Origin: Apostichopus japonicus
Taxonomy: Eukaryota; Echinodermata; Holothuroidea; Aspidochirotida; Stichopodidae
NCBI RefSeq assembly: GCF_037975245.1
Contig: NC_092575.1
Span: 1,007,001-1,071,000 of the forward strand
Direction of reading: 5' to 3'
DNA length: 64,000 nucleotides
Below, in pieces: positions 1 to 40,622 of the stretch. The notes under the pieces were generated by a model, which was not told the DNA's origin, ran no database searches, and saw only the letters and a program-made list of their open reading frames with translations. A program made the position numbers and the translations under genes. Positions within the stretch are counted from its first letter, which is position 1; each line of letters starts with the position of its first letter.

Positions 1-195
1 CTTATTGATTCAAGTCAGACAAGGAGATCTATGTGGCTTTATACAGAAGACACTATTTAAGGTAACTTGTGATGATTCTGAAAGAAGTTTGCATTCATGA
101 GGTCATTATTTGCTCAGAACTCTGGTGATATTCTGTGGATTTTTTTAGTTTTCTTAAATACAAACAGAAAATTTGCATAATTTGTTTATACTCAC

Positions 196-10407: not shown

Positions 10408-10515
10408 TCATTCCTTTGCAAAGGATTTCTCCAGCTGATCGGCAACGATTCTCTTCTTCATCTTCTCCTTGACATGTGTAAGTAGCGCTTCCTCCTTGAT
10501 CTTAATTGAGAGTAG
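10408..10515 (-). CDS. Clathrin-like gene, exon 8 (terminal)
   Basis: Acceptor ...ttctgtttag (516-517 side). The phase-0 exon encodes 35 residues beginning LLSIKIKEEALLTHV, which align with the family's VLSV-x-VEEENIIPYI at the propeller-linker junction, then a Lys-rich helix ending SFAKE and TGA at 10408-10410. No consensus donor precedes the stop, so read-through into more exons is unlikely. Confidence 0.8.
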   Translation of the reverse strand, partial: LLSIKIKEEALLTHVKEKMKKRIVADQLEKSFAKE

Positions 10516-13500
10516 CTAAACAGAAATAAAATAAAAGAGGGCTACTCAGAGAAAAGAAATCTGTAGGAGTGGTGGTAGATATAGTAGTAGTAAAATAATG
10601 TAGACTGCATAGAGGAACTCATGCATACTAGTAGAAAAGATCCCAGTAGGGGTGCTCACCCACATACTATGAGCAGCCGTGCTCACACACATGGGAACAT
10701 ATAGAGGGCAGGAGTACTCACACATACTATATATAACTTTGTCCATGACTTATCCATTCCATACAACTATCATTGCTTCCATATAATCTACCCTAATGTA
10801 CTATTAAAGTATTCATCACAATAACGGGGACAAACCACTATCAAACTAAAGGACTGAATTCTTCTGCCAGATAAATCCCCCCCCCCCGCCCAGTCCCACT
10901 TAACCCCATCCTACCTCATTCCATCCCACCTAATCCCATCCCATCCCATCTCTCCCCCTAACACAGTATTCTTCTTGCACAGTCTTCATGCTTTGTGGTG
11001 AAAACACATAAAGCTTCTGCCCACATATCAGTTCACCATAACCAGCAATTCCTGGGTGAGGATGACTGTTTACCTTTCCACATCTGTCGAGAGCAACGAT
11101 CCGTTTCTCCTCCACGTCTGTGATGGCCGTGAAGACAGCCATGTGAGAGACCCTGGCGCTGCATAGATAGACACCCGTCTGGATGTCGGAGACCTTCACC
11201 ATACCAGATTTAGTGAACACGTAGACTAGACCCTGAGTTGTGCTCACCTATGACAAGGATGGAAACAAAATACTTGTGTCATGTTTTAAAGATGCTCCCT
11301 TCTTCTTAACTTCTCAAATAACATCTCACATCACTATCTTCAAGTTCATACAAACTTAATACAGTAATACCTGTAATACCTGTAATACAGTAATACCTGG
11401 AACCAGAAATTGATAAACATTGCATGCTTTATGCAATCATTCATGTATCAGTGAGACACATTTTGGCAGTAGCACTTTGTATTTTGTACTGTCAGGTTAC
11501 CTTTATAATGGTATTGTCAATATTAAACACTATCTAATTTCAGTTTTATATCTATTTATCACTGAACCAATTATTATCATCAGCCTTTGAATGTATTTGA
11601 ATGTTTTCGATCCTTAAACCTGATATGGATGAAATCATTTAAGTTTTACCCAAGTTTTTCTTTTTATCTCATGAAAACATTAATAATTAAACACTAAAAG
11701 TAAAAACGATGGTTGGCACTTAACCGTCTAAAAAATTCAAAGAAACAGGGGCCCATTGAATCCCTATTGTTAAATATTCAACTGTGATATAAAAATCTAC
11801 ATATTTCTCCCTGGATCTCCCACCGATCTCACACCTTGATAAACGAATTTGCTCTGTAGACTTGAACCCTTAGTTTTCCAGTACACATGATCATAAAAGT
11901 ACACACGATAACCTGACGGCAATGTTCGGTAGACCACTAAAGCAATCAAATCTTGTGAACGTAAAACATTTTCTCTGATTGCTAAGGTACATACACATTA
12001 CAATATACAGTACAGTGACCTATTTAAGGGGGAAATTGTTACCACGGTTACGACACATGCAGCAACACAGCTACAAAATTATATGAACTAGTTTTAGTAG
12101 TTTCATTTCTACCTGATTTTGAAGTGAACAAACGAGACCACATCCTTGAAATTTTTTAAAAATTACATCCATGAACAAGTTTAATTTGGTGTATGTTTCA
12201 ACGTCTTTCAACATCTAAGGTGTTAATGTGATCCTATCGTGAAGCAAGAAGGCCGCCCAGTGTATCTAGGACATACTGTACTTGTAACGGTTACTACGGC
12301 GATAGTAGCCGAGTAATATCCATATCAAATTTACACAGGTTTATGTTATCCCTCTAAGATATCGATCGGGAACTCGTACAAGCAGGATGTGCATTGATTT
12401 TCTTCGTTCTTCCTTGGTCTCAATTGATGTTTTATAATTTGATGGTTGGAGCAATATTTTTTTTCTGTTACCATTGCCAGAGAACTGAGACTAAGTTAAA
12501 TTGTATCAATAAATAGCAACCAATATATATGCTTAATAAGATAAACAAGAATTAGAAGACCTCTAAGGAATATGCTTTAAATGACGACAATAGAAGATAA
12601 CAAAAAATAAAAAGAGAAGATAAAAAAGAACGAAAATGAAAAAGAATACAGACATTGGATTAAAAAGTGAAAAAAAAAACCTTGTTCCCAAGTTGGCAAC
12701 ATTACAAGTACTGTTGTCCTACCTGTAACCATGTTATTGTGTATTAACGTTCACTCATGTTGAACTATTCATTCCTTCACAGTGTATAAGAAGGACAGGC
12801 TTATCAAGGTTTAGTCTACAGTATGTCCAGGGGGGGTAGGAAGCTTCAAAAAAGGGGGGGGCACAACATCAGAGGGGCACTTTCTCATTCCACAACCACC
12901 ACTCATGCTATAAACCGATACACACAGGCTATATCACTTAAATATATATGATGTGTTAGTATGCCTATCAATACTATTTATTGAGATTGTTTATTGTTAA
13001 CTGTGCTACAAAAAGATATGGGATGCCACTTTAAATATAGCATGTACAGACTAAAAATAAGTACATTTCATTCTAATGACTACAATACATGACAATTCAT
13101 TCCTTCCCCAACCACCACATCCACCTTCACCTCTCCCTTGCCTTCTCCCCCTTCCCCCACCCCCCTTTTTGAATCCCAACCTAATCAATACTAATATAGA
13201 CTTCACCTTAAGTACTGTCTAGGATGACTAACTTCTCACTACTTATTAATAATAACTTCAAAGTTATGTCCGTCTGTCAAAGCCACAAATTTTCAGAACA
13301 TGATAGTTATAACATACATGTACCTCACTCAGCAAGCTAAACTGCTACCAGCATAAATAACAAATGATTGCAAAATAAATTTAATGTTAAATCTGTCTCT
13401 GATAATGGTACATGATAAATACACTTTATACTAAATATATATGAGAAGACTGGTACGGACTGGAATGTCTTGTAATTACATCTTTTCAAATATCTATTAA

Positions 13501-16500
13501 CATAATCGATACGATATATGTACAGTACACACGCACCTGTACGCAGACTGGAAAATCATAAAAACTTTTGTCATCAAAAAGGAGTTGTTCTGTGTTATTG
13601 GTAAGGGAGTAATTCCCAGAGATGAATGGCCCTAGTTCGATGATATGGATCTATAAAATAAACAAGCAATACACAAATAGCAAATATAAAATATAAATTA
13701 TCAGTGACATCAGTAACAAACATAGAACAACAGACATCTGAAGACAATTTTATCTAAGAACAAAACAAAATTAATAAAATATGTTTATTGTAAATTTTAG
13801 TTGTAATCATTGAAAAATGATAGATTTGGAAGACAGAGGAAGATGATGTTGACCCTGAATTAGGTCAGAGGGGCACAGGGTGGGGAAGAAGGGGTGGGGG
13901 ATCAGTGCAGAAATGTCATAAACTTTTGTAGGCTAGGTAGATTTGAGTGTATATGTTAGAATGAAGACAGGTACACGAAGAGGGGAGCAAAAGTAAACAA
14001 GAGTAACTAGAAGGAGCATGGAAGACTGCAATGGTAAAGTCACAAAGAGAAGAAAGTGCGAAAGAGGTTTTCCAAAATCCCTGACATGGTACAGCAAAGG
14101 GCATAGTTGTTACAAAGCAAGAGTTTGACGATTAAAGTCAAAATTTATGCTCAACTAAGTTCCTGAGATAGATCTAACTAACACCACTGTTTCTTCATTT
14201 TATCTTAAGCTGTGGCCTAAAAAAATGCTTTTGTATCTTATACCTTGCCAGGCTGACCAGCAGACCTGTGTGCCAAGACGAGAAGTGACGTTGGCTTTTG
14301 GTTGCCTTTCCTCAAGTACTTGGCGAAGGTGGCCGCTTGTGCATCGATAGGGATGCTGTGGTTGTAGTGAGCCGAGTAGACTTGGGTGACACCACAAACA
14401 GAATTAGCATCTCCATCCTGCAAATAAATACAAAAACCATTGTCAACACTGGAATGAATGATTACCCTTCTAGATGGATGCAGCTCCAAATGAATTGTAA
14501 AACAACTGACTAATCTAGCATATTCTGGCAGATTACTAGTTTGGGTGAATTTTTTCATTTCTTTCCAATAAATTTCAACGGATATCTACAGAACATTTCC
14601 ATTTCAAGCTTGTTAGCATACTGTAAAACGTCCCTCTTCGTCTCTGCGAGAGACTCAATCCTTTAAAACTAAAATAACTGACTATATAATCCTTGTTCAG
14701 CAGCTGCCCTTCCCAAATATCAAAGCATTCAGCTTGAACACACGATTTCTAACAACAGATTAACCATTCCATTTTCTCTCCATAATCCTCAATCCAACTT
14801 AAAGCCATGTTAACTAATCCTTCTGCCGTACAGGAATAGTAAACATAAACAAAATGTTTGTGTAGAGAGAACGATAATCTTCTGTGAAAGAAGGCATAAG
14901 CTTCGTTTACCTTCATCATGCACTTTATTAACGATAACGATAACAGTGCAACAACCCTCCCTGAATGTTGAGCAAGATGTCAGCTTTCGACTTCATGTAC
15001 TATTCTAGTTTTAATGTATCATGAAATATTTCTTAAAAGTAAACAGGCTGTGGATGTACTTTTAACTGTTTTCTTTTAAACTTATAGCCGTACTTTGGAT
15101 CTGTTGTTCATATCCGGCACCCACAACTCACAACACACAACGGTGCTTTTATCAAATAGAATATAAAATCGAGATTGATGGACAACATTAACGGTATACC
15201 AATTGATAAGAATTTACCAGGATCCAATAGAGGTTCAATTGATCTCATGTTTCTTGATTGGACTCCGATTAAATTGATGCATTTGTACGTTTTGAATACA
15301 AAACAAGATCTACGCATAGCTTCTAGATTTGCCAAGAAATTGTTAGATGTTTATCTCAATGTAGTAATTCGTTGTAATTATTAAATGTGCATTATAAATG
15401 CTCAATACGTGCATTATAAATAAGTGATTCATACCAATTATGTACATATGTACTATGGATAAAACATAGCTGCCATGTTGTTTATCTGCAGGGAAATCTA
15501 TTCATGAATTCTAATATGTAAAGAGTATTTCCCAAACCCCCACCCCCCCCCCCCAACGCCATACTCTCCTGTTTCCCTCTTGAAATAGAAGCAATCCCAT
15601 TTCTGACAGAATGGCTCAATTTTTGGAGATTTTCCCCCAATATTCTTGGTCCTTTGTGTTTTCCCTCTGTCATGAATCACATACATAGACACACACACAG
15701 ACAGTTGGCCACCTTTTAACTAGCAACTTGCAAAAATACTTTAGTCAAGTAACTTTTTTCAAAATGCCATTTTTCTTTTCATCCAACATACAAATGAAAT
15801 GACAAAAGCTAAGGACTGGAAACATTGTTTCTCCATTGTTTTATTAAACTGCCAACCCTATAAACTAACCGCAGAAGCTGCGTCTGACAGTATGAAAGCA
15901 AACTTATGCCGTTTGAAAATGGATCCCAGTTTATACATTTACCATTTTCTCTCTTTATTACCAAATTGCTACTTTTGTATTTTGCAATTGCAAAAACCCA
16001 AGTAAACGTAGTAATCCTCTTTTTGTCTGTCATATGGTTTTGTTTTAAACAAGTACTGTAGGCCTCCTAGAGCTCCTCCTAAAGGAAAGAGAGGTAACTT
16101 TATCTTCTCTAGAAATCTTTACATCCATCAAAATTCTGTTTTCGTTAACCAACTTTGAGATGCTTGCATTGAAGATGAGATCATCTAACAACTTAAATAT
16201 TCCAAAATGCAAAAAGTCACGGACTGGGTATTAAGAGTAATGTATCATAAAATTGAACCGATAGCTCTCACTATTTTTATCGTCTCTATTTTCGGCCGGA
16301 GAAAATTAGAGACAGATATATTTCACACTTGGCTTGGCAATCTTACAATGTGTTATAAAATAATATGTATAAATTTGCATATATTTAATATACAACTCAA
16401 AGAAACCCATGGGTATTAAAATCTGGATGCCAAAACCTGCCCAGGAAACCTCTTTTTGAAAAGGATACTTTAATATCAAGCTGTTAGGTGTAGTGAAGAC

Positions 16501-19500
16501 AACTGTAAACTATTTGGTAAAGACCAAAAAGGGTCCATAAGGCTACCAAAAATTCCCAACTCCAAAGTCCACCAAAGAAACACTTGTAGGTACTTTGGGT
16601 GGTAGAATGAGAAGGTGGGGCCTCGAGCGGAAGTGACTTGTGGTAGACGACTCACACTGCCTAACAGGTTACCAGTGTCACTATAGGCACGGTACAGCTA
16701 GAGTGCTAAGGTTGTGGGGAGACAGGTAAGCGATCAGCGTAGTAAATGTTGTTCACATGTTAAATTGCATAATGCACTGATGCTTCAGATTGGAGTAAAA
16801 CAATAAATGACGTCTTTGGCATATATGATTCATTTGGTGAACAATAAATTATCAGTAGTTTAATGTCATATATTAGAGCAAGGGAAATAAGCTGGAAATC
16901 TAATCAGTGTTTTGCCCGCGAGCAATACTCCATTAATAAATTAACGGCGAAAACAGAAAATAACTTTGCAAGTCACATGGCTTGAAAAGGTTGCCATTTT
17001 CAGGTCTCATTAGCGTCCTGTTCACGACCAATGCAATATCGTCATAAATTGTTGAGATTACAAGTAACTTGATTTGGGAAATATTTCAGATCTAGGTTGT
17101 CATGGCAACAAATTGGGAACTGTAAAGGAATAAAGTTTAAAACTATAATTACAAAGAATTATTAAGAATTATTGTAAATTATTTATCATAAATGTGTAAC
17201 AATTTGATATTATTTTGAATAATTCTTTACACTAATATGTTACATTCTGTTCCTTTACAATTCACAATTTCTTGACAATGACAACATAGATACCATACCT
17301 CCAAACATATTGCAGTACAGAAAATGATAGGGTCTATAAAGGGGGCTGTTAACAAACAACTATTGCCTATTTCGTCAATACCGCACTACAACGACCACTA
17401 CACCGTAGTCTCCAACAACTTTCGCCTCCATCCAGCACTACCATGCTAAAGACAGCAAATATACAAGAACAGAAGCTTTCCAGTGTTTAAGTTTTCATTG
17501 ACGTTTTGACGCTACTAAATATTAAAACCTCGCTAAAATGTAGATCAATGTAGGCAAGGGGGATATGGCTCCCCTCCCTCCTTTTCCACTCCTTGTCCTT
17601 CCTCTCCCCCTCCTCATCTCAAACCCTCCTCCCCCCCCCCCCCTCCCCATCTCAAACAAGTACCAGGGTCTCCGGTAGTGGGTGGTAAACGAACTAAAGG
17701 CTGAGGCTAATAAATATATCCCTCCTTCTGATTCCTCCAATTTTAAGAGTAAAGCTGTTTAATTTATGTAAACATTACAGAGGGCCTGACGTAGTTTGAT
17801 AGATTGTTTCCAGAGGCAGGCTCTATCAGTTGCAAATCTATAGGCCTGCACAGAAAATCCTGCTAAGATGAAAAGAAAAAAAACTCAGGCTTACCAAACC
17901 TTTGACAATTTATCTACATGGTTTCTTTAGTACAGTACATGGACAAGCTTGTTTACAGGTGTTTTTTCTATCAAGATAAATAACTTGAAAGCAGAATGAA
18001 CCAGAATGAAAACATTTCATGGTTCCTTGCTGCTGTTCATTAGTTCCATTCATAGGGAAATTTCTAACAAAGCCCTAATACAACAACAGTAATTTATGCT
18101 CACAAACTTTTGTTGCCAAAGTAATGCTAAGCCCTGATATCAATTGCAACACACATCAGTGTGTGAAGACTATCTACCATTATCATCATACCAAGTTTGA
18201 CGAAATTCCGACTAGTAATAGTAGCCAAGTAATTGCAATTTGGAGTATTTCACGTTTGACCCCATGACCTCATTAATATTCATGAAATGAGCACCAACAT
18301 CAACAGGGATAATCTACTTACTATGGGCCACCCACTCACCAAGTATGGTAATGATTGGTCATTCCCTTGTTGAGTTATTGTGCATACAAACTTTTCATAA
18401 CGAAATAATGCTAGCCCCCCCCCCCCTTATAAACATGCATGATATCAATTGCAACACACATCAGTGTGTGGAGACTATCTACCAATATCATCATACCAAG
18501 TTTGACGAAATTCCAATAAATAGTAGCTAAGTTATTGCAACTTGGGAGTTTTTCACGTTTGACCTGTGACCCTCATTAATATTATTTATCTTTGAACTCG
18601 TATAACTTCGCACACGAAGGTCACATTGGGGTCAACCTATTGACATTTATGATCAGAAGGCACCTTTGACATCTGAAAATAGCATCGAAACTGCAAAAAT
18701 CCCCAAAACACGAAAAGGTCACCAGAGGTCAAATTGAGGTCAAGGGTCACCCAGATGCGGGTTGACAAATGGATTACACTGAAGCAACTCCCAACCTTAA
18801 CGGACAGTTCGTTCTCAAGTTATCACAAAAATACTAGTTTTTTATCATTAATTGACCTTTGGTGACCTCGGATCACATGACCGTTAAGTTTGAAAATATT
18901 CCCCTATACCATTTGCAACTTGTCCCAAAATATCAACCACGTCACACCTTGGAACTGAGAGTTATTGCATTAAATGTCTGAAAATTAACTTTGACCTCGT
19001 ATAACTCCGCACACGAAGGTCACACGGGGGTCAACCTATTGACATTTATGATCAGAAGGTACCTTTGACATCTGAAAATAGCATCGAAACTGTAAAAATC
19101 CCCAAAACATGAAAAGGTCACCAGAGGTCAAATTGAGGTCAAGGGTCACCCAGATGTGGGTCGACAATTGGATTAAATTGAAGCAACTCCCAACCCTAAC
19201 GGACAATTCGTTCTCAAGTTATCGCAAAAATACTAGTTTTTTTATCATTAATTGACCTTTGGTGACCTCGGATCACATGACCGTTAAGTTTGAAAATATT
19301 CCCCTATACCATTTGCAACTTGTCCCAAAATATCAACCGTGTCACACCTTGGAACTGGGAATTATTGCACTAAATGTCTGAAAATTTACTTTGACCTCAT
19401 AAAACTTCACACACAAAGGTCACCTGGGGTAAACCTATTGACATTTTTGATTGGTGAGACGTGAATACAGCATCAAAACTGTAAGAATTCAAACATTTTT

Positions 19501-20484
19501 TTCTTTGCCCATTTTCTCACCGAAAATACTAGTTTTTTAACATTAATTGACCTTTGATGACCTCGGATCACATGACCGTTAAGTTTGAAAATATTCCTCT
19601 ATACCATTTGCAACTTGTCCCAAAATATCAACCTTGTTACACCTTGGCCCTGGGAGTTATTGCATTAAATGTCTGAAAATTAACTTTGACCTTGTATAAC
19701 TTTACACACAAAGGTCACCCGGGTGTCAACCCATTGACATTTTTGATCGGAAGGTACCTTTGATATCCAAATCTAGCATCAAAACCAAACATTTTCTTTT
19801 TCGCTCATTTTCTCCCAAACTAAGCACATTTTTTCTAATGTGACCTTTGACCTTTTGACCTTGGTTTCAAATGTAGTTTGATCTGCTGATTCCAAAAATC
19901 AACACGATAAGTCTGTACAGCCATCCTAACTCTGACCGAAAACTTTGACCCCATATAAGTTCGCACACAAAGGTCACACGGGCGTCAACCTATCGATATT
20001 TATGATCGGAAGGTACCTTTGACATCTGAAAATAGCATCGAAACTGTAAAAATCCCCAAAACATGAAAAGGTCACCAGAGGTCAAATTGAGGTCAAGGGT
20101 CACCCAGATGTGGGTCGACAATTGGATTACACTGAAGCAACTCCCAACCCTAACGGACAATTCGTTCTCAAGTTATCGCAAAAATACTAGTTTTTTAACA
20201 TTAATTGACCTTTGGTGACCTCAGATCACATGACCGTTAAGTTTCAAAATATTGCCCTAACCAGTTCACAACTTGTCCCAAAATATCAACCTTGTCGCAC
20301 ATTGGCACTGGGAGTTATTGCATTTTTAGTATTTTGGGTTTTTGGACCATAACTGACCTTTGGTGACCTTTGTGGGCACCAAAAACAATAGGGTTCATCT
20401 ACTCACTATGGGCCACCCACCCACCAAGTTTGATCATGATCAGTCAATCCCTTGTTGAGTTATCGTGCATACAAGCTTAAGCGT

Positions 20485-20516
<32 letters not shown>

Positions 20517-23500
20517 TACATACACACACACACACGCCAACCTGAATACATAGGTTCCTTTGCTTTCAGCAAGGAACCAAAAACGGAGAAGTGAATTTAA
20601 AAAAATAAAAACATAAAGACAAACGTTGCAATTTGTGATATAATTTAATATGCAGTAAACACATCAATTATGCATATTTTCTCTGATATGATAAATTTCT
20701 TCACATGGGGTGAACTTCAAGGTTGGATTATACAATTTAATGAGGACATGTTATAAAAGCATACTGTATACTTTAAGTGGTCTTCTGTAACCCATAGCAA
20801 CAACAATGAAGTCAATATAAGACTTGTGGTAAATGTATAATATAATTTATGTTTTCAACCAAACTATTCAGTGTGACAGAAATTATGGAGTATTGCAGGA
20901 AGTTTTAAGACATTGAATGGTGCATGAGAAAGTCATACTACTGTTTAGCTAAATGTCTTTTTTATTTAAATTAAATAGTTAATTATACTTAAAATTCCAA
21001 GAACCTGAAATGACTACTGGAACAGTTTATCAAAAGACCAGATTCAGCTGTACTGTAAGTACTCTGACACAAGCTGCAGTAAAGAACCTGTGTCACTGAA
21101 CACAGACTTTAGTGTATTAAATACAATTTCATTCCTGGATAATCATCCGGAACGAGCCTTCTACAGGCGACAAGTTTCTGATTTCATTATGTTGATGTTG
21201 CTGTAGGTGTTGATGTTGATTTCCATGGTATTGAAAGGGATTGGAAACCATAGCCGAGTGAAAGGCTATCAAGATCATAAATTGTGCCACTGATACCTCG
21301 AATCAGTCAGAGGCCAGTGTTTCTATTGGGATCGTAAAATGTGTGTCCCACAGATGCAACATCCCAAAAAAATAATTGCACCATACAGAGAAGCATGCAA
21401 TGTTCCTGCCAAAAACAATCACCAAAAGTCACATAAATTTTCTTCTGAATGGTAGATTTTGAGAAGAAGAGTTAGTGGGCGTTGCCCATGTAGACGTGAG
21501 GGAGGGAGCAGTGTAAATAAATCCAGCCAGGTGCTGCAGATTGGGTAGATAGACAAGTGCAGATGTAGTAGTATTGGCGACAACTAACAGAGGATCGAAG
21601 TATTAATATTTACTTCGCTCCTCACTTACCTGTCTCCCCACAACCTCAGCACTCTTGTTCTACCGTGCTTAGAATGAACTGGTAACCTTTGAACAATGCC
21701 CTTCCTTCTCATTCTTCCATCATGAATTCTCATTCATTTTAAACTTCCCAAATATCCACAACTGGTACTGCAAACTAGTTGTGACTTTACAGGTATGCCA
21801 ATTGACAGATTTTGTCACAAATTTAATGTGCAAATATCTTTCAAGCAGAAAATTGATTTCTAAGCCTTACTTTTGACATATCTCACAACTCTGTGTGTAT
21901 AACAAGTAGCACTACTGTTTATGTCCTGCCTAAGGTGTGTTTTTACTATACAGTAATTAAAACCCTATAGATAAATTACTGTAGCATCTGCATATGAAAC
22001 CAAAAAACAAACAATCTAGATTGAATCGAAAACAAAACTGAATCTTTCTCCACGGTAACCATACATGGTGATTTTCACTAACATCTCCCTCCCGGAAGAC
22101 ATGTGAATTGATCCTGTTACTATGACAACTAATTGCCTCCAGGCAAAAACAATGGAAAACGTGCCAATTCACGGCGAGTGAAACTTACAGCATACCATCT
22201 CATCACTACTATACGTAACACTTGAGAGCTCACGAAGTGCCTTACAGGTAATATCAGATCATTGAACTTGAAACGATCTACAACTCTAAAGAGATCTTTA
22301 CATGTAACAGAATCATTGTCAGACTCTGAAATTTGAGAGAATGGGACAAAAATATACTCTTCCTTATATACAGTATAGAGTGTCCATTTACAAAGTATAG
22401 AGCAGAAACTGTTCGTCATTAGAGTGTGTGTTTTAAGCTGAATGAGTCAATGTGTGTGTACTGTATGGCATAGATCTGTTGCATGAATAGTTTCAAACTG
22501 TAGGCTGTGTTTGCAACATCAATGATCTTGCTACTGTAACAACAGTAATATGGTTGAAGTTAAACTTTACACATACAATGCTCAATCAAGTTTTAATTGC
22601 CAGCAAAATGCACCATTTCAGTGAAAGATTTTAATTCAGTTTAGAATGTTTAGGTTTATAGAAATTTGTAAGGAACTGTTTAGGATATGGAATTTGGTTT
22701 TAAACGTCAACCAGCTCCTTTAAGTTCCCAATCTGGAAGGAACAAAGTGTGAATTGACTTACTAGTAAATGTACAGAAGGGGTCTTTCATGTGCAGCACT
22801 AACGTACAGCCATTAATACAGTAATTTACGCTTTTTATTCTTAGGGAAATTTTCCAAACAATTACAATACAGCAAGGCCATAAGTAGTAGTGTCATGCCT
22901 TCATGCTTGTCTTCGAACCCTACGAACAGCTCTGACAAAACAAGCAACAATTTGTTAATTCAATTTAATGGTTTATAAAAATAACCTAATGGCACTGGTG
23001 CCCTAGCAATGTCAAGAGCATAATTGAATTTCCAGGTCTCCTGCTCGCATCTCTTTCAGCAGTGTTTTTACAGAGTTTTACTCTCCTTTATATAAACTGA
23101 AAAACCTGGGGCTAATTTCGACAGGTGTGACTTACGTCGTACTCTCTGTATAGACCGACCACAGCAAACCATCTGAAGGAGGGATCTGTTTTGTAGGCAA
23201 CAATCTGGCAAAAGTTAAGCTTAGGATGTCTGGCAAAGGCTCGGACTGGACGGGAAAAACCTGCATAGTAGTAGAACGAAAAGATACATACTTTAAGACA
23301 GTTTCTCAATCTTTGCAATTATTATAACCTGGACAGTTCAAATGCAAAATTGTACTGGCAAACAAAAAGCCAAATGGAAGAAGAAGAGGAAAAAGAAAGA
23401 AAAAAAAGACTTCAGAAAACGGGATCAGAATATTGCTAAAGAACTTGCATGAATTTTGTGATAAGGTGAATTCATTTTTAACAGAATGCAACCGGCTGCT

Positions 23501-29500: not shown

Positions 29501-32500
29501 ATACATACACACTCTGATCTACCATGGCTACAGACTGGTATTAACATACTTGTACTGCCTCAATGACCTTCTAAGGTCACTACCCTCTCTACCCTCCAAA
29601 TGTCCTACAATACTTTCTTTGTTTTGACTCAAGATTAATGAGAACTAATTAGAATCAAAGGACTTGCAAAATGAGAAGTGATATACGTAGCAATTACATC
29701 AATGGCCTTTAAATTATGACAGCTGTTACCACTTACCAGTAGGTGGGGATAGATCCCAGTGGTACGTGAACTTTGACCCCACCATACCGATGACGTCTTC
29801 ATTCAACCACGTCCAATATTGCACTTCATCTTTCATTGTACAACGGTACATCTGCTTCTCTGCGACGATGTTGAAAATTTGAAAATGTCGCCCAACTGGA
29901 AGGAAAACAAAGCCAGGAAAATGCTAATTAAGTTTGGTCCATACAGGAATGGCATGGTTAAACATGCAGAAATGGAGGGAGGTAGGGAAAATCCAAAACT
30001 TCCCATATACCAAAAAACTAGAAGTGAGGTCAGATGAGGTGGAACTAAAGACAAAACAAATGTGTACCAAAGAAAACTTCTTATGTCCTGTATTGACATG
30101 TTTCCATCTGCAGATAATATCAGAATGCCCATAAAGAATTACATGGAAATAATCCAAACATTTGTAATCAGAAGTTCATTCCAAATGTCAAAGGTCATAT
30201 ATTGTACATCAGAGTCTTAGAATGTTACAAAGAGTTAAATAATCCAAGCAGAAAAAGGAAACTGTCAGATTGCAAAGAAATTACTACAGAGAATGGGATT
30301 TCATAAAATTCATTAGAACTTTGAAGATATAATCAACATTCCTGTCTTTCATTCTCCTTCGTTCTTATGTATATACATTATACAATACATATCTTTCATA
30401 AAGTTCACCTACTATACTTACACCTACTCTACAGTTCATAGCTATATAGTCATTCTGTAGTACTGTGCTCTGTACAATATAGGTAATAGAACTGTGCACT
30501 AAATCTACCATACAGTATATATAGTGTTGTACATACGTACATGTGTCGCTGTACAGTACATCTACTATATAAGACAGTACTTACATAATATACTGTACCA
30601 CTGTACAATACAGCTGAGTACAGTTTATGTTACATCTACTATGGCACTGTTTACATACAAAAATATGCAGTATACTGTATCTGCTAAAGAACCCACAGAA
30701 CATCCTATATAATACTGTACAGTAATTTCACATACATAGTACTGTTCAATGTAGAGCAGTTTCTATACTATAGCACTGTACTCCAATTATAGCACTATTC
30801 ATGATCTACTAAACCACTGTACAGTACATGATCTTACAGTATACAGCACTGTACAATACTTTCATATATTACACTGTGCAATGTAGCTTGAACTATAACA
30901 GTTTACATTACATCTACTTTAGCACTGTTATTAACTGATCTAACACAGATAGGTTCCCAAATAAGCTACTGTAAGGCTTCCTGATCCTTAATTGGGTCAC
31001 TAAACTAACTAAACTAAACTCACTACAGTACACACAGCACTATATGCAGTATGTAGATCTACTACAGCACTGTAAAGTACATCTACAATATACAGTGTTT
31101 TTCTTGCATACAATGTAAATCTACAGTAATACAGTGACAGCAATGTAAAGTGTATCCTATAAAGCAGTTGAGTAGTTTAACAGTAGCTCAGTATCTCGTA
31201 TTATATACAGTGGAACTATCCCATTACTTCAGTGTTCTGTGTATAATTTTCTATCACTACACTGTGGGATATATGTATAACATACACTACACATACTGTA
31301 AAGTACAGTGTATCTATAGATGAAGCATGTAACTACTACAGGCAATGTACAGTAGTACACAACTAAAGTATGGTTACATCAAAACAGCACTGCAGTCTAT
31401 GTCAGTAGTACACAATATCTACAACACACTGAAATGTAAACCACTCTGTACAATATGCTTACTACCTGTAGTTCATATCGATTTACCACAACCTTAAAGA
31501 CTGCAAAGGATAAAAAATCCATTCTTTCTTTTTTTTGACGTTACCCAGTCCCAGGGCTAATTACCCTACAGCTTATTACAGCAAGTAGCCTACTACTGAT
31601 ATAATAAGTAAACTTGGGTCTTGCTGAAGTTCACTACCAGCAAAAAATATTAAAATTCATTCAAAAGCAGGAATAGTATCTCAATAAAACCACAAAGGAG
31701 ACACTTTTACAAATCAGGATAAAGGCACAGAATATAACAATGTGACTTATTTATGCAACGGATGTATATCAAGCCCCAAGCCATCACTGAACATATTTAT
31801 GGCAAGAAAAAACTGAAATAGTCTGCACACAGATTTAACACATGTGTTTCACTAATGCAAAGTTATTAAAATAATGTTAACCGGGTATTTTATGACTGTA
31901 ATTCTCAATAAATACAATTTAAGACCTTCAATGAAAGAATGGCATTAAACATAACTTATGTTCATGAGGAAGGATTGCTTTAATGCCGAACATTGTACAC
32001 ACAATACATAAGAGTGCTGTCAGTCTGAGGAGACAATAGCATGAAGAGTAAAATAAGAGGCAAGCCTAATAAAAACCTGCTAAAAAAAGAAATTCCCAAG
32101 GTTCAATTCCCAAAGCTCAATTTCCAAAGTCCAATTCCAAAGTTCAAGCCAGAATTTCACAGTAAAGCTTTACATACTGTACTGTAGTGCAGTATGAGAA
32201 CAACTATTTTTTTTAGCTCACCATGTCATACTTGGGACTTACAATCCTCTACTTTGAAACTATGAAAGTAATATCTAATCACATCACAGGATGTATTAGG
32301 TAAGCACTTATATACCAGAACCACTTTACAACAGCTCATGTCTCTTCTCAAGAGTTCATCACTACTTTACTCTCAAATTATAAACTTTAATAGTTTGATT
32401 ATCCTTCCACTGAAATCGATTGAGCTTGCATACATATATGTGCATAGTGGATACAATTTCATAACAGAATGTTTCTTACGTTTCCTTCACTTGTACATAC

Positions 32501-35500
32501 AGTAGATACAGTAGAGCCACTAATGAAACCAGAGTGGAAACAAGATATCAAGATTTGTGTTGATAGAGCAGACAGCTTTATATATGACTATCATTCTTGT
32601 AGCCATGACAACCATGCAAAATGCAAAACAGGAATCACTAAATTAATGAAAGGGGAAAGGCTATGTCCAAGCAAGTCTGATGCAGTCATTTCTGTTCAAA
32701 ACACCTTTCTACCTTTTAGGGTTTCACGCTCTTTTGCACAAGACAATTTACCTACTCCAGTAAGTACAGTACAGCTCAACTAATGGAAGCTGTGAAACAT
32801 TATTAGCCAATGTAGTGTATTAATTGTGTTTAAGAGCACAAATGGTCACATATAGAACATGTATGTCATAATGTGGTTGTTTCATTGTAAAACAAGACAG
32901 TGACCGAGTCCTTGTTAGTTTGTTGTTTGTATTTTTTTTATTTGGATATATTGTCTCTGTTTATATTCCATAGGAGGAAAGCACTTCAACAACTCCCTTT
33001 ATCATGTTTACAAAATGGACTAGAAACTTGAGAAGTTTAAAATAATCACCTGGGTTCATTAACTAGGGTTTGAGCTGAGAAGTATTCGTATATTGAGCAA
33101 TAGAATTAACATATATATGCTGATCGGTATTAGGATTCACCTATACTGATTAGCAAGATTCACATACCTTGATCAGTTCTGCTGATCAATAGCATTCACA
33201 TCGATAGGATTCACACACATTGATCAGTTCAGGATTCACACACTTTGTTCAGAAGGATTAACATACTGATCAAGAGCATTCACATTTCACATACGATGAT
33301 CAGTGGACTTAACATACAATTAAATAGGATTCACATGCATTGATCAGTTGGATTCATTGCACTGCACAGTAAGTCAAGTCCAAGTGCATTGTACAGTTGA
33401 GTTTCACTTGCTTAAGTAACTTCATTTTATAAATGGTAGATACCAAAGGGGGGGGAAGTGTGGGGGGGTGTTCCAGATGTTGGAGGCAAAGTGCTCAAAT
33501 GTTTCCAGTCATATAGCTTCATGCAGTTTGGAGACAGGTAGGAGAACAAGTAAAATCCACAGTACATTAGTCAATATACTATAATGTAGTCAGTATCATA
33601 GTCAATAAACTAATTATGTAGTCAGTATAATAGTCAATAAACTATAATGTAGTCAGTATACTAGTCAATAAACTATTATGTAGTCAGTATACTAGTCAAT
33701 ATACTATAATGTAGTCAATATACTAGTCAATGTACTATAATGTAGTCAGTACACTAGTCAAAATACTATACAGTATACTAGTCAGTATATACTGAACTTC
33801 TGAAGCATTAGATCTACAGTACAGTATGTCATGACAGCCATATCAGAACTCTGCTTTAAGCAGAGAATATAATGGCTGTTGATTGCATTTGAGAGCCCAC
33901 TTTTTAAACTAAAACTCTCCACGCATCAAAAGAGGTAATGCTGCACAATTATTCAAATAGAGCCCTTCCAGGACTATTAACCTCCTGAAACATTATGAAG
34001 TGAATACTTGTTGACTCTCTTCAAATCGCAACAGATTTGTTTTGAGCAGGCAAACCAGTACTTCACCACTTGTTTTTGTATTTCATTTTCATTATTTGAA
34101 ATGGAAACTTAACTGTCGGTCGTCAGGGTAATAATGTTCAGTTGATGAGCTGTGTTTCCACTTTCAAGTTACTTCATGGAATTGATGTTCGCATGTGATA
34201 GAAAAAGGGTACCAAAATCAATCCAATATGCTGCTTCAAATATCTGGATAAAAGCATGGCAAGATGTCGCTGCAATTTATTGTTCCAGTGATGCTGCGCA
34301 GTTTCCAGTCCAGTCGGTATAGTGACATGTCAACACCCATATCAAACGTGAAACTAATTTGTGATGCAAAGAATGAATATTTTAGATCTACAACATTGAT
34401 GCAAAGACTGCAGGAACTTGAAGAGAAATACTAACCTTGAGTAGATCCCAGGGTAGTGGCACTTCAAGCCAACAATAGCCTTGAGCCATGCTGATTACTT
34501 TTCAGCTTAATTATTCATTTTGTGTTCACAAAACAAACAATTGATCAAGGATCATACAGTCAAGTATCGTACATTTTCAGAGACAACATTTGAAATTCTC
34601 TTGACTATTCACAGATTTATTTTAAGTTCCTTTTTCTGTTAAAGCAGGAAGTCCACATTGAGATTTAAAGCAACTTTACACAATCATTTTAGTACTTTAT
34701 ATATATATGCTTGCTCAAAGCACCAATGTTGCAATACAGTGCATAAATCTTTGAGGTAATCATGTTTTCAAGACTTTAGAGTCGTGATTGTGAATTTCAA
34801 TTTAATTGAAATGTCTTCAGCTTGCAAGGACTTTTAGAATCCAGTGATATCAATGATTATTCCTCATTCTCTGAAAATTTTGGGGAATGGTCGTCTTGCA
34901 TTAAGCGTACATTTCTAGCATAGATCGTTATTTCGTATTGAGACCTTCGGTGGGTTTGATGAAAATAACAGATGGTGTCTACCAAGCGCAAAGACTGTTT
35001 CAGCAAAATATTTGAACCATGATGATAACAGCTTCACTGTCTCAAGCTGAAGAATGTTACAAACATCTGTGAATTTCAGTTTTTCCTCTGGTACAAGATA
35101 ACGTTACTGTACCTTAGGAAGAAAAAATACATCACAGTGATGCTAACTTTGTGTGAAATATTTTCATCATACCATTCGAACCAATCTTTTTAACTTCACT
35201 AACACTGTAGTTTGTTTTGACTTACAGTAATACATTTTGGCAGGAGGTGGGAGGGGAGAGTGAGGGCATAGCACTCAACTTCACTAATACTACATTTTGT
35301 TTTAACTTACAGTTTGGCAGGGGGTGGGGGAGGGGGTACATAGCAATCTAACCTTCATTAATACTGTAGTTTGTTTTATCTCACTGGTTGGCAGGGGGTG
35401 GGGGAGGGGATACACAGCAATCTAACCTTCATTAATACTGCAGTTTGTTTGTTTTGACTTACAGTTTGGCAAGAGGTGGGTGGGGGGACATAGCAATCTA

Positions 35501-38500
35501 ACCTTCACTAATATTTTAGTTTGTTTTTTAACTTTCAGTTTGGCAGGAGGTGGGGTGGGAGTGGGGGGATAGAGATTGGAGGGCAAGGACAGAAGGGGAG
35601 TGTTGGTTTCTTCCTTTGCTATATCTGTACATGTGTGTCCTCTACCGGAGATTGAGGGGGCACAGTATTAAAATGTTCCAATTGATTCAGTACTTGGTGT
35701 TAAGGTAGATGGGAAAAGTGCATAAAAGCAGACTGGAGACCAGTACATGAGAGGAGCGAAGTCAATGCTTACGTTTTAGGGCAAGCCATGGCTTCCTGGG
35801 GTTCATTATAGCAGAGTCCGCTGTGCATGGCCATGTTTTGGGTCTTGGTGTACGACTGGTCAAGTTGATGACCGTCACACAGTTGTCCCTTTTCTTCTTC
35901 TTGCTGGTGTGTCGGCAACAGAGCCAGCGGTGGGAAGACATAGTGGCCCGAGGGAAAGTCACCTGCTCTGGCTTGATGCCAAATGATGATAGCTGAAAAG
36001 AGATTAACAAAACTGCTCGGTAAAAAACAATTATTTGTGACAAAAGTTATAGTAAAAGACTCACAAAGATTGTGTCAGTTTCCTATTTACAATTTTGTTT
36101 AAAATTAGCAAACTAAAAATTAACAGTTGTTTTTTCCTAATATGTGTTTGTTGCTTGCATTTTATTTCAGTGTTTCTAACGACAGGATACAATATACAAT
36201 ATCAGGGACAAATAAATAATGATAAGATTTATGTAATGTCACTCAAACTAAACAAAACTTTCATCAACAAGCTGAAAACCTGTAACACATTTATTGCTAT
36301 CGGTGTGCTACCACTCTGTGCAAACAGTGTTATGTGTGAAAAGCAAAAGTTACTGTTTTCCATCTGGGCTTTAAAATCAAAATATTTCCCCATTCTTAAG
36401 GGGCAGTGGAATAAGGTATTTATAGTTTTGTTTTGTATCATATCACCACCTCAAATTGCAAATTGCATTAAAACTGCATTCCAAACACTATACTAGTATT
36501 AGTCAGAAACAAATCTTAAAAATTTTGAGTCAGCAAAATTATTATACTGCACATACCATTCATACCATAAACACGATACTGACTATTCAAAATGAAACTT
36601 GCTGAACATACTTTTAATTTTGCTGATATATAAGAAATAACATCAGATTTTTAACCAAAAGGGTTGATTTTGATAACAAATGACACCATGGGAGTATCTG
36701 ATGGTAAACAGATCACTCAACACTGTATTGTGTGTGGCTAGGCCAGCACAAATTTTGGGGTTTGAGTACAGTACTTACTTACGGCCATAGGATTTTCAGA
36801 CTCCGACAAGGTGACGGGGAAAAAATAAATAAAATCGGTTGTCCAACCCCACATGAGTATGACCCCAAGTTTAGAGCCAGGTTACTGTTCAGTACCTCCC
36901 ATAGGCTACATGTGATAGTATTACTGAATGGAGAAGATGCGTTACTGTATGTGCAAGCGTGAAGTAAATGCATCAAAAGTTTGAAATGAAATGTGCTTTG
37001 TTTTATCTTGCATTGATCTTGATGGATCTCCCATACTATGTACACCGATACTGAAACCCAATTACAATGGAATTCACTACGTACTTGTAGCTATTGATAA
37101 AGTAATACACTGATTCAATTTGTTTCCAGTCATGAAGAAATGTTAACACGTTTCGAACAATTCCAATTTTCTTTTTGTACACTACTGTATTAACTGTACT
37201 GTCTGTACTGTACACTAAGTAAACTTGTATGAGGGATAAAGTTTTGGTAGAAAGAAAATAAATAAGTCAATATTTAGAACGGCAGACTGGGAAGGAAGAG
37301 AAAGTGGACTTTTGACCCACAAGTGGGTCAGAGGGGGCGCTATGTTGAACTGTTACTCATCTCTTTAAGGCTATACATCCTGCAACACGTACATCGAATC
37401 GAGACAAGTAAAAGAGGATTAAAATATTAAGGTTCATCAGGTGAAAACAACCCAGTAGGCTATCATAGTTTGATCAACATCAACCTTGAGTGTAAAGTTT
37501 GATAAATTTTGGTGGCCAACACATTTTTAGGTGTTACTGATGTATTATTCAGGTCCTTCTCATGTGCTACTCAAGTACTTCATTGATCAGATGAAGGAAT
37601 GTGGTAGTCCTCAGTCATTTGGGCTGCAGAGCTAAAAGTTACCAATTTAATGGCATCTGTAGGGAAAAATCTTATCCAGATACAAAAGTGCATTTGTTAA
37701 GAGGAGACAGGTGAGAGAGATGGACACAGAAGACCTATCCCAAGATATTGCTAATGTTGCTCTGCTTTCATCTTTATCTTAATAAGTGTCAAAACAATTG
37801 TTTAGAACTGTTCTGTCAAAAGTAGATGATACTAAATATGGTATAAATCAGTTTGACAATTTCAATGACATCAATAATTAGTGTCCTGAACACCCTTAAA
37901 ATGAATCAAGTTAGCATATGAAATTACTCACATTAGTAACATATGTAAAATTCATAGTTTTGCTTGAATCCCCATACATAAATGTACAGTATTTGTACAA
38001 ACAATGGCATTTCCTACTGACACCTAAGCAGACATTTCCACATACCATTCATAAGGATTACAAGTTTCAATATCCATTGTTACTCATCCAGGCATGCTTT
38101 ATTTTTTTCAACGACTGAAACTCATGGACAAAGCATAGCTTTGAAACCCGCTCAATTTTAACAAAGAACACACATATGTTGGATGGTACATTGATGATCA
38201 GTACAATTTACAACTGAAATGTAACTTGACTTTTGAAATTTCATTCAAATTTACACATTATCCTACATACCAGAGTATGATAGAATTATGCTATTTAAAA
38301 CATTAATCGCAGTGAATAATTTACTATGCATCCATTGTTAAAATGTTAAGAACTCTTCAACTGTTTGATCATTGACTTCAAATCATTTATAGGGTACTGG
38401 AGATTGTACCAAGTACTTATCTTATTGATATTGTTAGACTAGTATATACACTGTACAATATCATGCTCTTGTTGAGGAACTTTAAGGGACGGCTGGTACA

Positions 38501-40622
38501 GCATGTTACAGCATCAGATATATACGTACACTACTAGTGTACTACACTCATATCTTCTTATTGTATCTTACTGTCTGTTTAAATATGTTTACTTATTGTA
38601 TGTATAACTTATTGTCTTATAGATAATGGAATTTTAATGACAATATTGCTATTAAGTATTGTTTCAAAGCAAATAGTCTACATTCTTTAGAACCCACTGC
38701 TGTAGGCCAAACTTTCTTGTTTAAAGCTCCCAATTTTCACCAGGATCACCTTGGTGACCCTCCAGTGGTGAATGTTGTGGCCTGGGTCAGGGGCCTACTG
38801 GGAGGAGGTTCCCCCCCCCCTGCCTTCACATTTGAGAATCTTTTATGATTAATGGTACTTACTTGCAAATTGGTGACATTATTATTCATTCTAGATTCTT
38901 CCACTTTTTTATACAAATATCGGCAATGATTTTTGACTGCTAAATGTTGGCGACGCTACAAAGCATTTTCTTGATCCTTGTTTGTTAGTTGGGAGGTGAA
39001 ACGACCATTGAACGGTACTTTTCGAAATGGTACTTTTAGGTAAATAACTCAACTTGATAATAGGACTAGGGTAGGATGAGGGTATTGGACTTCCAGGTGG
39101 CTTAAGTCCACCTCACCATTTCAGTTCAATACTTAAATTAGTGCTGCTAAAATTAATTTATGCCATTAAATACCATCTCATCTCATTTCATACCTTGATG
39201 AAAATGCCTAGTTATACAAAGGGTCTATAAACTGCATCAGACACTTCAGTGAGTCATAAAACTCGCAGCATGATGGAGATAAAACCCTCTCATTGGGTTA
39301 TTTAATGTTGTTTTTTGGCTGTTAAATTGTATTTGGTGAACAATTGTTCTCAGTTTGCTATTTCACTCTGATAAAAAGGATGTTGAAAACTAAATCATGT
39401 TTTCATTAACAATTATTTTTGACCATAATTTGCTTTAAAATCAACTTCATTAGCATCTGCAAAAAAATTATTATTTTGGGTGCTATATTGAGTGTTATGA
39501 TGCTGGATATGTTTGCAATTTTTACTGAAATCCAACATGAAGGATTAATGCAGATTTTACAGTGTGGTGATGTGCAATCAGTAGAAAAGACAGAAGTTGA
39601 AGATATGAGTGCATTTCTAATATTGTCAAACACCACCTTAACATCTAATTTCAAGGTGTGAGAATTATTAAAATTTATCACATTCCATCCACAATACTAC
39701 TAATGTGTGAGTCTGCTGTGGGTGAAATAGAATCAAAGGAAAGGTGGTCCAAATAAGCACCACATGAGTAGACTGAAATAGCCCAGACACATGTCTAGAT
39801 TGAAAATATCCTAAATTAATAAAACAACAAAAATCAATTGTACAACTAGATTACAAAATACAAGAATGATAAAATTAATACTTCCACTGGCATCGTGCCT
39901 CACTTGGACGAATAACAATTATTAAAAAGTAGTAAGAAAGGGGCCATGTCATTACGCCATCGGTACATTCCGCCATAGAAAATGTGCTCATTCCGCCATA
40001 GAATGAACAAAGTGGCTATTCTTACGACTAGTCGTAAGAATAATTTATAAATACGCATGCGCAGTTGCTTTAACATGGCTATTTTTACGACTACGAGTAC
40101 TATTTTTTACGACTAGAAATAACAATAATTTCCGGTTAGGGTTAAGGTTAGGTTAGTGTTTAGGGTTAGGTTTAGGGTTACCCCGACTACATGCGCAGTT
40201 GCTTTATTTACTTTACTGCACTTGAATTCGCCGATGTTGTAAGAATAGTTATTAAATAATTGTTACGACTAGGCCTAGTTGTAAGAATAGCCACGACCTA
40301 GAATGAGGCCTACTACTACTTGTACTAGCCTACATTAAATGCTACTTTCTAAAACCTGTACTGGTTATGGCCGGTCTAAACCTAGGACTAATTTCACCAA
40401 TCACAGCGCTAGTCTAGCGTAACTTTACTAGCCTAGCCAACGTTAGGTTGTTATTAGTAAATACAGGCTCTAACTTGGGCCTAATTTAGTAAGTTAGTGT
40501 GTCATAATAATAATTGTGACTTGTATAGTAAATGTAAGGTTAGCACTAACTTAGTATAAGGACAGGCCTACCTGGAAGACTTGTTCCACATGCACAAGCG
40601 GATCTTCAACCACTGCCTCCAT
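10408..40622 (-). CDS. Clathrin heavy chain N-terminal propeller-only protein (whole gene, 8 exons)
   Basis: Joining eight exons gives 374 residues that follow the clathrin heavy chain terminal domain from its first residues (start MEAVVEDPLVHVEQVFQ) to the beginning of the linker (LLSIKIKEEALL). Landmarks in order are ADSAIMNP (75-82), LGRHFQIFNI (91-100), TYHWD (about 135-139), VYSAHYNHSIPIDAQAATFA (exon 5), IHIIELG (exon 6), VYVFTKSGMVKVSDIQTG (exon 7) and ALDRCGK. The family's terminal domain and linker span about 390 residues and the full chain about 1675. Here a TGA follows 35 residues after the last blade, so the trimerising and light-chain-binding legs are absent. Identity to ordinary clathrin is about one third by eye, whereas true clathrin heavy chains are nearly invariant in animals. 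It is therefore a divergent paralogue, probably cytosolic and able to bind peptides but not to build a lattice. Confidence 0.85.
10516..11073 (-). other. Intron 7 of the clathrin-like gene
   Basis: 558 bp. It contains C-rich simple sequence (10877-10970) and nothing else recognisable. Confidence 0.7.
11074..11247 (-). CDS. Clathrin-like gene, exon 7
   Basis: 58 whole codons, acceptor ...gtcatag, donor GTAAAC. It encodes VSTTQGLVYVFTKSGM... through ALDRCGK, equivalent to the last full blade of the clathrin terminal domain (family pattern LxTKxGYIHLYDLETG, GVNRKGQV). Confidence 0.9.
11248..13536 (-). other. Intron 6 of the clathrin-like gene
   Basis: AT-rich, with a short repeat of AATACCTGTAATAC at 11360-11400 and G-runs at 12830-12860 plus C-runs at about 13140-13166. 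No element boundary was found. Confidence 0.7.
13537..13650 (-). CDS. Clathrin-like gene, exon 6
   Basis: 38 codons in phase 0, acceptor ...ttatag, donor GTGCGT. IHIIELGPFISGN and the closing YDFPVCVQ match the family's LHIIEVGxPxxGN and NDFPVAMQ. Confidence 0.9.
13651..14243 (-). other. Intron 5 of the clathrin-like gene
   Basis: 593 bp with no feature beyond a G-rich run at 13870-13900. Confidence 0.7.
14244..14417 (-). CDS. Clathrin-like gene, exon 5
   Basis: 58 codons, acceptor ...atttgcag, donor GTATAAG. VCGVTQVYSAHYNHSIPID followed by QAATFAKY matches the family's VVGAMQLYSVDRKVSQPIE and HAASFAQF. It ends RSAGQPGK, equivalent to RGQAGGK. Confidence 0.9.
16602..16730 (+). repeat. Dispersed repeat, copy A
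   Basis: From GTAGAATGAGAAGG to GTTGTGGGGAGACAGGTAAG. The same sequence, diverged, occurs inverted at 21625-21720. The family is unknown. Confidence 0.6.
17096..17285. mobile_element. Foldback MITE, about 190 bp
   Basis: The left end GTTGTCATGGCAACAAATTG and the reverse complement of the right end GTTGTCATTGTCAAGAAATTG match, and the pairing continues inward through TGTAAAGGAA and AAAGAATTATT. Nearly the whole element could fold into one long hairpin. It has no coding capacity. Confidence 0.7.
18716..18749 (+). promoter_or_regulatory. Nuclear-receptor-like half-site cluster (DR4-DR5-DR1)
   Basis: AGGTCA (716-721), 4-bp spacer, AGGTCA (726-731), 5-bp spacer, AGGTCA (737-742), 1-bp spacer, GGGTCA (744-749). 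The same cluster recurs starting at 19115, 20069, 61424 (one half-site mutated), 61823, 62223 and 63178. The arrangement is seen in the sequence; receptor binding is not shown. Confidence 0.4.
19841..19853 (-). promoter_or_regulatory. Perfect DR1 half-site pair
   Basis: TGACCTTTGACCT is AGGTCA-A-AGGTCA on the minus strand, the consensus DR1 bound by RXR, HNF4 and COUP-TF type receptors. An identical site is at 62949-62961 in the second element. Function is inferred only from the motif. Confidence 0.35.
20485..20535. repeat. (CA)n microsatellite
   Basis: An alternating CA run, broken by CATA, at the 3' part of the long element. The homologous position in the second copy is 63597-63643. Confidence 0.9.
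21625..21720 (-). repeat. Dispersed repeat, copy B (inverted)
   Basis: The reverse complement reads GAATGAGAAGG...GAGTGCTGAGGTTGTGGGG...GGTAAG, matching 16602-16730. With that copy it brackets the long element in opposite orientation. Confidence 0.6.
23136..23260 (-). CDS. Clathrin-like gene, exon 4
   Basis: Acceptor ...tatgcag, donor GTAAGTC. Two bases complete a Gly codon, then 41 codons. RPVRAFARHPKLNFCQIVAY corresponds to the family's [20 protein letters not shown]. Confidence 0.88.
24066..24340. repeat. Degenerate minisatellite (CTAGCATTGTGGCTACCTCCAG-like)
   Basis: About ten irregular units of roughly 18-36 bp built from AGCATT, (T)GTGG(A/C)TA and CTCCAG/CTCTAG. Confidence 0.7.
27585..27660 (+). 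repeat. G-rich tract, potential G-quadruplex
   Basis: At least eight runs of three or more G (GTGGGGAGTGTGGGTAGGG onward to GGGAGAGGGAGGG) with short loops. Confidence 0.6.
29231..29270. repeat. Perfect 17-bp inverted repeat with 6-nt loop
   Basis: AATGGCCAAGTGGTGTA, loop TGTATG, then TACACCACTTGGCCATT. There is no T-run after it and no coding context. Confidence 0.9.
29338..29430 (+). repeat. Tandem repeat, unit AAGTGCAGTAACAGTT (16 bp)
   Basis: About six copies, one shortened and one with a G-to-T change (AAGTGTAG). Confidence 0.9.
29737..29895 (-). CDS. Clathrin-like gene, exon 3 (clathrin-box groove)
   Basis: Acceptor ...ccttccag, donor GTAAGT. Two bases complete Leu91 and 52 codons follow. 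GRHFQIFNIVAEKQM corresponds to the family's GKTLQIFNIEMKSKM. The clathrin-box groove residues Gln89 and Phe91 (bovine numbering) are kept, while Thr87, Lys96 and Lys98 are His, Glu and Gln here. The exon closes with TYHWDLSPPT, matching VYHWSMEG. Confidence 0.9.
33120..33365. repeat. Irregular repeat with GATTCACATAC...TGATCAGT
   Basis: About eight irregularly spaced copies of GATTCACA followed by TTGATCAG. Confidence 0.6.
33568..33796 (+). repeat. Minisatellite, unit about 31 bp
   Basis: Roughly seven copies of a unit reading TAGTCAATAAACTATAATGT followed by AGTCAGTATAC, with point differences between copies. Confidence 0.85.
35195..35560 (+). repeat. Minisatellite, unit about 75-85 bp, G-rich core
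   Basis: Five copies of CTTCA(C/T)TAATACT...AGTTTGTTTT...TTGGCAGGGGGTGGGGGAGG and ...CATAGCAATCTA. The units carry a run of G tracts on the plus strand. Confidence 0.85.
35773..35992 (-). CDS. Clathrin-like gene, exon 2
   Basis: Acceptor ...ctcttttcag, donor GTAAGC. 73 codons plus one base (Leu91 is completed by exon 3). LSSFGIKPEQVTF corresponds to the family's LQNLGINPANIGF, and ADSAIMNP is identical to the clathrin signature. A basic insertion-like stretch (SKKKKR) sits where the family has EKVGEQ. Confidence 0.92.
40012..40294. mobile_element. Inverted-repeat element with telomere-like core
   Basis: The left end GTGGCTATTCTTACGACTAG and the reverse complement of the right end GTGGCTATTCTTACAACTAG match, and pairing continues through TCGTAA and AATAATTTA with a small gap. 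A perfect 26-bp palindrome centred on CTAG sits at 40017-40042. Between the arms are two GCGCAGTTGCTTTA copies and the TTAGGG-like stretch at 40134-40190. Confidence 0.65.
40134..40190 (+). repeat. Interstitial telomere-like repeat
   Basis: Degenerate (GGTTAG/GGTTTAG) units: GGTTAGGGTTAAGGTTAGG, then TTTAGGGTTAGGTTTAGGG. TTAGGG is the telomere unit of most animals; the short length argues against a fused telomere. Confidence 0.7.
40572..40622 (-). CDS. Clathrin-like gene, exon 1 (start)
   Basis: ATG at 40620-40622 and 17 codons, MEAVVEDPLVHVEQVFQ, then donor GTAGGC. The phase (0) matches exon 2. PLVHVEQVFQLSSFGI aligns with the family's PIRFQEHLQLQNLGI. An ATG two codons earlier in another frame does not read into the exon. 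Confidence 0.75.

Follow-up and report, generated by a model that had tools for sequence, protein, structure and literature searches.

On the minus strand of a 64,000-nucleotide stretch of contig C15 (NC_092575.1) of the echinoderm Apostichopus japonicus, referred to here as the window (C15:1,007,001-1,071,000; genome of 671.6 Mb in 35 contigs), we found an eight-exon gene running from 40622 to 10408, the product of which corresponds to the terminal domain of the clathrin heavy chain (CHC) and ends before the legs. The coding sequence of 1125 nt, including the TGA stop codon, specifies 374 amino acids. We tentatively regard this propeller gene as an old leg-less paralogue of CHC encoding a stand-alone, W-box-biased propeller that would act as a soluble competitor for W-box ligands, a reading drawn from sequence analysis that we consider quite possible rather than probable. 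In CHC itself, the legs build the coat through trimerization, light-chain binding, and lattice formation.

Judged by sequence comparison, the similarity of the product to the clathrin terminal domain is far beyond a chance match. Residues 12-358 matched solved clathrin terminal domains with a phmmer E value of 4e-59, and a two-sequence BLAST against the human CHC terminal domain returned 110 identical residues out of 345 (E 3e-65). Toward the ordinary CHC of the same genome, 111 of 357 residues are identical, the terminal domain of the latter sharing 298 of 362 residues with human. The product is accordingly predicted to comprise the seven-bladed terminal-domain propeller in full length; detectable homology runs to approximately CHC residue 340, and by length the product ends at about CHC residue 358, just inside the linker. 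Inspection by eye of the three frames past the TGA gave nothing CHC-like. All seven introns have GT-AG borders (14 intact splice borders) and consistent phases (0,1,1,0,0,0,0), the start ATG carries A at -3 and G at +4, and two out-of-frame ATGs are located close upstream. An initial annotation of the window had drawn this gene with the same coordinates, strand, extent, and eight phase-consistent exons, reading it as the terminal domain from the start codon to the first linker residues followed by TGA; both the model, with its GT-AG introns and 374 open codons, and the domain assignment, with the phmmer match, were confirmed. The 37-residue propeller-repeat model PF01394 reached E 0.17 on the product, below the cut-off, as the sole match of a Pfam scan in which the clathrin linker domain PF13838 was not found, and the locus was absent from a genome search with PF01394. 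Domain scans can therefore overlook such genes.

A protein search of the genome, in which only the best candidates were scored, listed 11 matches to the product at E <= 1, eight at the propeller locus and three at the ordinary CHC. The latter is located at C15:19.76-19.77 Mb, approximately 18.7 Mb from the propeller gene, and has propeller, linker, and clathrin-repeat exons; its terminal domain alone was assembled. The clathrin-repeat family gave 13 matches genome-wide at E <= 0.1, of which 11 belong to the CHC locus, one lies on C18, and one, below the cut-off, lies on C16, with no match near the window. The match at C18:18907750-18907992, above the cut-off with E 3.2e-8, contains three internal stops. 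Leg exons were further sought in the 30.4 kb downstream of the gene (20 kb plus window positions 1-10407) with 13 leg-exon frames, i.e., those frames of the ordinary CHC overlapping Pfam matches, and none convincing was found: the 19 matches at E <= 1 (best 0.017) were short and scattered, six of them with internal stops. Across the whole window, the same frames yielded three matches at E <= 0.1, the best of which (0.014) lies within a glycine run. Querying the window and the downstream region with 220 frames of the CHC locus returned short repeat-like matches only; the best in the window (3e-6) fell at 16.7 and 21.6 kb, in brief sequences of repeat-like character, and involved query frames taken as intronic. 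As a positive control, terminal-domain exons searched by the same method recovered exons 2-7 (6/8) at E < 1e-4 and missed exons 1 and 8. Because this control recovers most propeller exons while the leg frames give nothing convincing, a series of leg exons downstream appears unlikely, and single diverged ones could be missed.

The last point bears on the possibility that the 374-codon model is incomplete or only one isoform, with longer transcripts splicing exon 7 to undetected exons. Exon 8 is indeed the least conserved one and was missed by its CHC counterpart in tblastn, and isolated diverged leg exons could escape detection. However, exon 8 starts at a CHC intron position, no clathrin-repeat match occurs near the locus, and neither the 13 leg-exon frames nor the 220 CHC-locus frames produced a candidate by a method that does find six of the eight propeller exons. 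We consider this alternative improbable. The clathrin repeats of the ankle and legs are absent from the product, which ends at residue 374, and with the CHC C-terminal part missing, the trimerization hub and the light-chain binding part are presumably not contained either. The earlier description as a leg-less paralogue thus held over the 30.4 kb downstream. By homology, the propeller gene is a CHC paralogue; by coat-protein features, it is not a clathrin heavy chain.

Intron positions and site patterns were evaluated with respect to the origin of the gene. Each of the six introns in the terminal domain of the ordinary CHC recurs in the propeller gene in phase (0,1,0,0,0,0); five of them coincide precisely in the alignment, and one, in a gapped loop, is approximately three residues off; one additional intron separates exons 3 and 4. 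Since introns are common to both genes, the copy was made from DNA and not from mRNA, ruling out a retrocopy. At 63 aligned sites differing between the echinoderm and the human CHC, the product carries the echinoderm residue at seven and the human residue at 10. A late duplication in the echinoderm line, which predicts mostly echinoderm matches, is thereby disfavored (probability of 7 or fewer out of 17: 0.003 at an expected share of 0.75 and 0.09 at 0.6). These 17 informative sites favor a split that either predates the separation of the echinoderm and human lines or took place early on the echinoderm side.

At four-fold sites in residues shared with the ordinary CHC of this genome, the third base agrees in 11 of 46 cases, with 13.9 expected at random; silent sites are saturated while protein residues are conserved. 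In a simulation of neutral decay, considering substitutions only and no indels, none of 2000 copies was stop-free at ~35% identity, the mean being 13.2 stops. The protein has been under long constraint, and the gene is apparently intact. If the gene were a pseudogene or the dead remnant of a CHC duplicate, this would explain the missing legs, and inactivation in the very recent past would not be visible in the sequence, but the uninterrupted frame of 374 codons, the 14 undamaged splice borders, the conservation of residues alongside randomized silent sites, and the outcome of the simulation speak against it. On the intact frame, splice borders, site pattern, and simulation, this explanation was rejected as highly improbable, and a recent truncation was ruled out on the same grounds. 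The latter agrees with the initial annotation, which had denied a recent truncation, whereas its argument that one-third identity shows age needs to be corrected: identity alone is no proof, and it is the pattern at 17 sites that speaks for age.

Residues of the ligand-binding pockets were assigned from PMC11543927, with yeast positions translated into human ones using the correspondences stated in that paper and an offset, and supplemented by the contacts I80, I154, R188, and F218. The W box is largely preserved, with F27, Q152, V177, F260, V262, K278, and R320 retained and I154V and I170L as conservative exchanges (7/9 identical, 9/9 similar). In the clathrin box, V50, Q89, F91, and I93 are retained, with R64W, I80L, T87H, K96E, and K98Q replaced (4/9), and the basic residue R63 is lost besides R64, K96, and K98. 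The arrestin box likewise keeps four of nine residues (W164, I194, H229, and I231) and shows the exchanges L183V, R188Y, Q192I, F218L, and K245N, while the Royle box retains R297 and has E11Q and N296A (1/3). Each main box of the ordinary CHC of this genome equals the human one at 9/9 positions. Among columns equal in human and own CHC, background identity of the product is 103/290; the chance of at least the observed box identity is 0.012 for the W box, 0.40 for both the clathrin and the arrestin box, and 0.73 for the Royle box. Hence, the latter three are not worse than background, and it is the identity of the lost residues that is distinctive, in particular the disappearance of basic side chains from the clathrin box and of the anchoring glutamine from the arrestin box. 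The W-box excess is a lead, not proof.

Based on these data, we propose that the legs of an intron-bearing CHC paralogue disappeared in the distant past and that the gene has survived as a terminal-domain propeller followed by a single linker helix. Devoid of legs and hub, the product would not be expected to trimerize, bind light chains, or enter the lattice; if expressed, it would be a soluble monomer. Its retained central pocket may bind W-box-type peptides, and ligands of this kind (SNX9- or amphiphysin-type accessory proteins, perhaps AP2) could be held by it or withheld from ordinary clathrin, with clathrin-box and arrestin-box motifs probably being bound poorly. In this way, the product could compete for W-box ligands or sequester them locally, with a putative effect on endocytosis, and the altered pockets suggest a natural modulator of clathrin traffic. 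According to PMC7480105, clathrin endocytosis is inhibited in human cells that overexpress the terminal domain, either alone or extended by the distal leg, through disturbance of the contacts with AP2 and SNX9; the W-box-derived peptide Wbox2 causes much the same inhibition. A natural leg-less head with the W-box surface retained could act like such an inhibitory terminal domain. Of the earlier proposal of an adaptor-binding propeller that could compete with or tune clathrin, the essentially intact W-box pocket upholds one part. With R63, R64, K96, and K98 of the clathrin box and Q192, R188, and K245 of the arrestin box gone, competition is plausible mainly for W-box-type ligands. A more specific version, i.e., a W-box-selective antagonist or tuner split off before echinoderms and vertebrates parted, being either a natural terminal-domain dominant-negative or the separated head of an ancient second clathrin with CLHC1 as its other half, we regard as unlikely.

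Several observations weigh against a W-box competitor. The W-box probability of 0.012 is uncorrected for four boxes, the residue lists were partly fixed after the alignment had been seen, and folding requirements may account for the retention of W-box residues. The basic character of the product, with a pI of 9.3 versus 6.2 and 6.3, could mean different ligands. Three SNX9-family matches were found in the genome, all on C16, and a six-frame WxxW scan of 30 kb at this SNX9-like locus gave 14 matches, six on the strand of the gene and none convincingly in an SNX9 exon. BAR-family matches in the genome amounted to five. Together with the altered boxes, the basic charge could leave room for an unrelated role, and we consider it possible, if rather doubtful, that this is a functional gene repurposed away from clathrin endocytosis, e.g., as a scaffold. 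Damage to two or three binding boxes and the reversed overall charge are in line with repurposing; the retained W-box pocket is not.

Such a product could also partner a CLHC1-like protein, the two representing halves of an old second heavy chain. The linker family PF13838 has two matches at CHC, one on C8, and none at the propeller locus. At the C8 locus (C8:17530256-17530372), called CLHC1-like, clathrin homology begins at residue 363 of the own CHC, near the end of the propeller product at ~358, and terminal-domain exons gave no match there better than E 0.055. Combined, the two products would span a heavy chain from its head through the linker into the beginning of the ankle. On the other hand, this complementarity may merely reflect a natural domain border, the parts share no overlap for testing a common origin, and the name CLHC1 is based on one linker-family match.

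Exons of the propeller gene and the CpG-rich stretch at its start, in positions of the window
Feature	Position	Strand	Remarks
Exon 1	40572..40622	-	start codon, 17 codons; GT donor, phase 0; aligned to CHC residues ~7-16
Exon 2	35773..35992	-	found with own CHC exon 2 by tblastn, E 7.9e-9; AG/GT borders
Exon 3, clathrin-box residues	29737..29895	-	found with own CHC exon 3 by tblastn, E 4.0e-10; AG/GT borders
Exon 4, preceding intron absent from ordinary CHC	23136..23260	-	found with own CHC exon 3 by tblastn, E 8.2e-8
Exon 5, W-box V177 and arrestin-box residues	14244..14417	-	found with own CHC exon 4 by tblastn, E 8.1e-6; AG/GT borders
Exon 6, W-box F260 and V262	13537..13650	-	found with own CHC exon 5 by tblastn, E 9.1e-5; AG/GT borders
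Exon 7, W-box K278 and R320	11074..11247	-	found with own CHC exon 6 by tblastn, E 3.4e-5; AG/GT borders
Exon 8, last strand, basic linker helix, TGA	10408..10515	-	preceding intron at CHC position and phase; alignment extends into exon 8; no tblastn match from own CHC exon 7
CpG-rich stretch around exon 1, possible promoter	39601..41800	.	among 316 1-kb windows, 7 of the top 10 in CpG richness have starts at 39601-40801

The remaining three of the ten top CpG windows lie in intron 6 (starts 11401-11801), forming a second CpG-rich stretch at 11401-12800 (0.75-0.81 observed/expected in 1-kb windows), distant from the gene start. Because of this second stretch, the CpG richness around exon 1 is a weak, non-specific promoter sign. 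Head to head with the propeller gene, exon-like frames of a neighboring gene occupy 42800-56000 on the plus strand. A Pfam scan of ten open frames gave matches below the cut-off only, the best being RabGAP-TBC (E 0.0077, frame 48019-48324); other frames of this neighbor are TBC- or C2-like by eye. Two tandem arrays of ~400 bp units with frames alike (18584-19451 and 61139-62558) are probably one satellite or mobile unit. Outside the window, five mitochondrial COX1 matches at C29:14745-31219, on a contig other than the mitochondrial one (C35), represent either a nuclear copy or an assembly fragment. COX1 of C35 has asparagine and isoleucine at conserved sites when translated with table 9, the code of echinoderms and flatworms, whereas table 5 gives lysine and methionine at these sites and table 2 gives stops; together with the 298/362 identity of the own CHC terminal domain to human, this strongly favors an echinoderm.

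Searches for relatives in viral and prokaryotic collections gave 2 and 26 pattern matches, respectively, with none confirmed; these collections contain no animals and are uninformative on orthologues. No propeller-only clathrin gene was found in the open-access literature among the matches listed, and such a gene may already be present in animal sequence databases as "clathrin heavy chain-like." As discussed in PMC7480105, CHC mutated in single terminal-domain boxes still functions in cells, making the role of each box a standing puzzle. If our proposal is true, a natural head with one box kept, the others changed, and detached from the lattice would reveal the capabilities of the W box by itself and show whether a soluble head serves animals in adjusting coat assembly. 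In the evolution of animal clathrins, it would also supply a counterpart to CLHC1. Even as an oddity of one echinoderm line, it would be an unusual domain-only paralogue.

Compared with the N-terminal domain of CHC (CLTC/CHC17, CLTCL1/CHC22), the product covers the whole seven-bladed domain and has intron positions and W-box residues in common with it, whereas ankle, legs, hub, and trimerization part were not found in the propeller gene, its clathrin-, arrestin-, and Royle-box residues are altered, and its pI is 9.3. CLHC1 (clathrin heavy chain linker domain-containing protein 1) is likewise an animal CHC-derived fragment without most of the molecule; in contrast to the propeller gene, it holds the complementary part, i.e., linker and ankle start with no propeller found, here encoded at a separate locus on C8. 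The closest functional likeness is to the overexpressed isolated terminal domain, TDD, and Wbox2, as described in PMC7480105, which share with the product a head without hub presenting the W-box surface; these are laboratory constructs of the normal human CHC with all boxes intact, whereas the propeller gene is natural and diverged and its activity putative.

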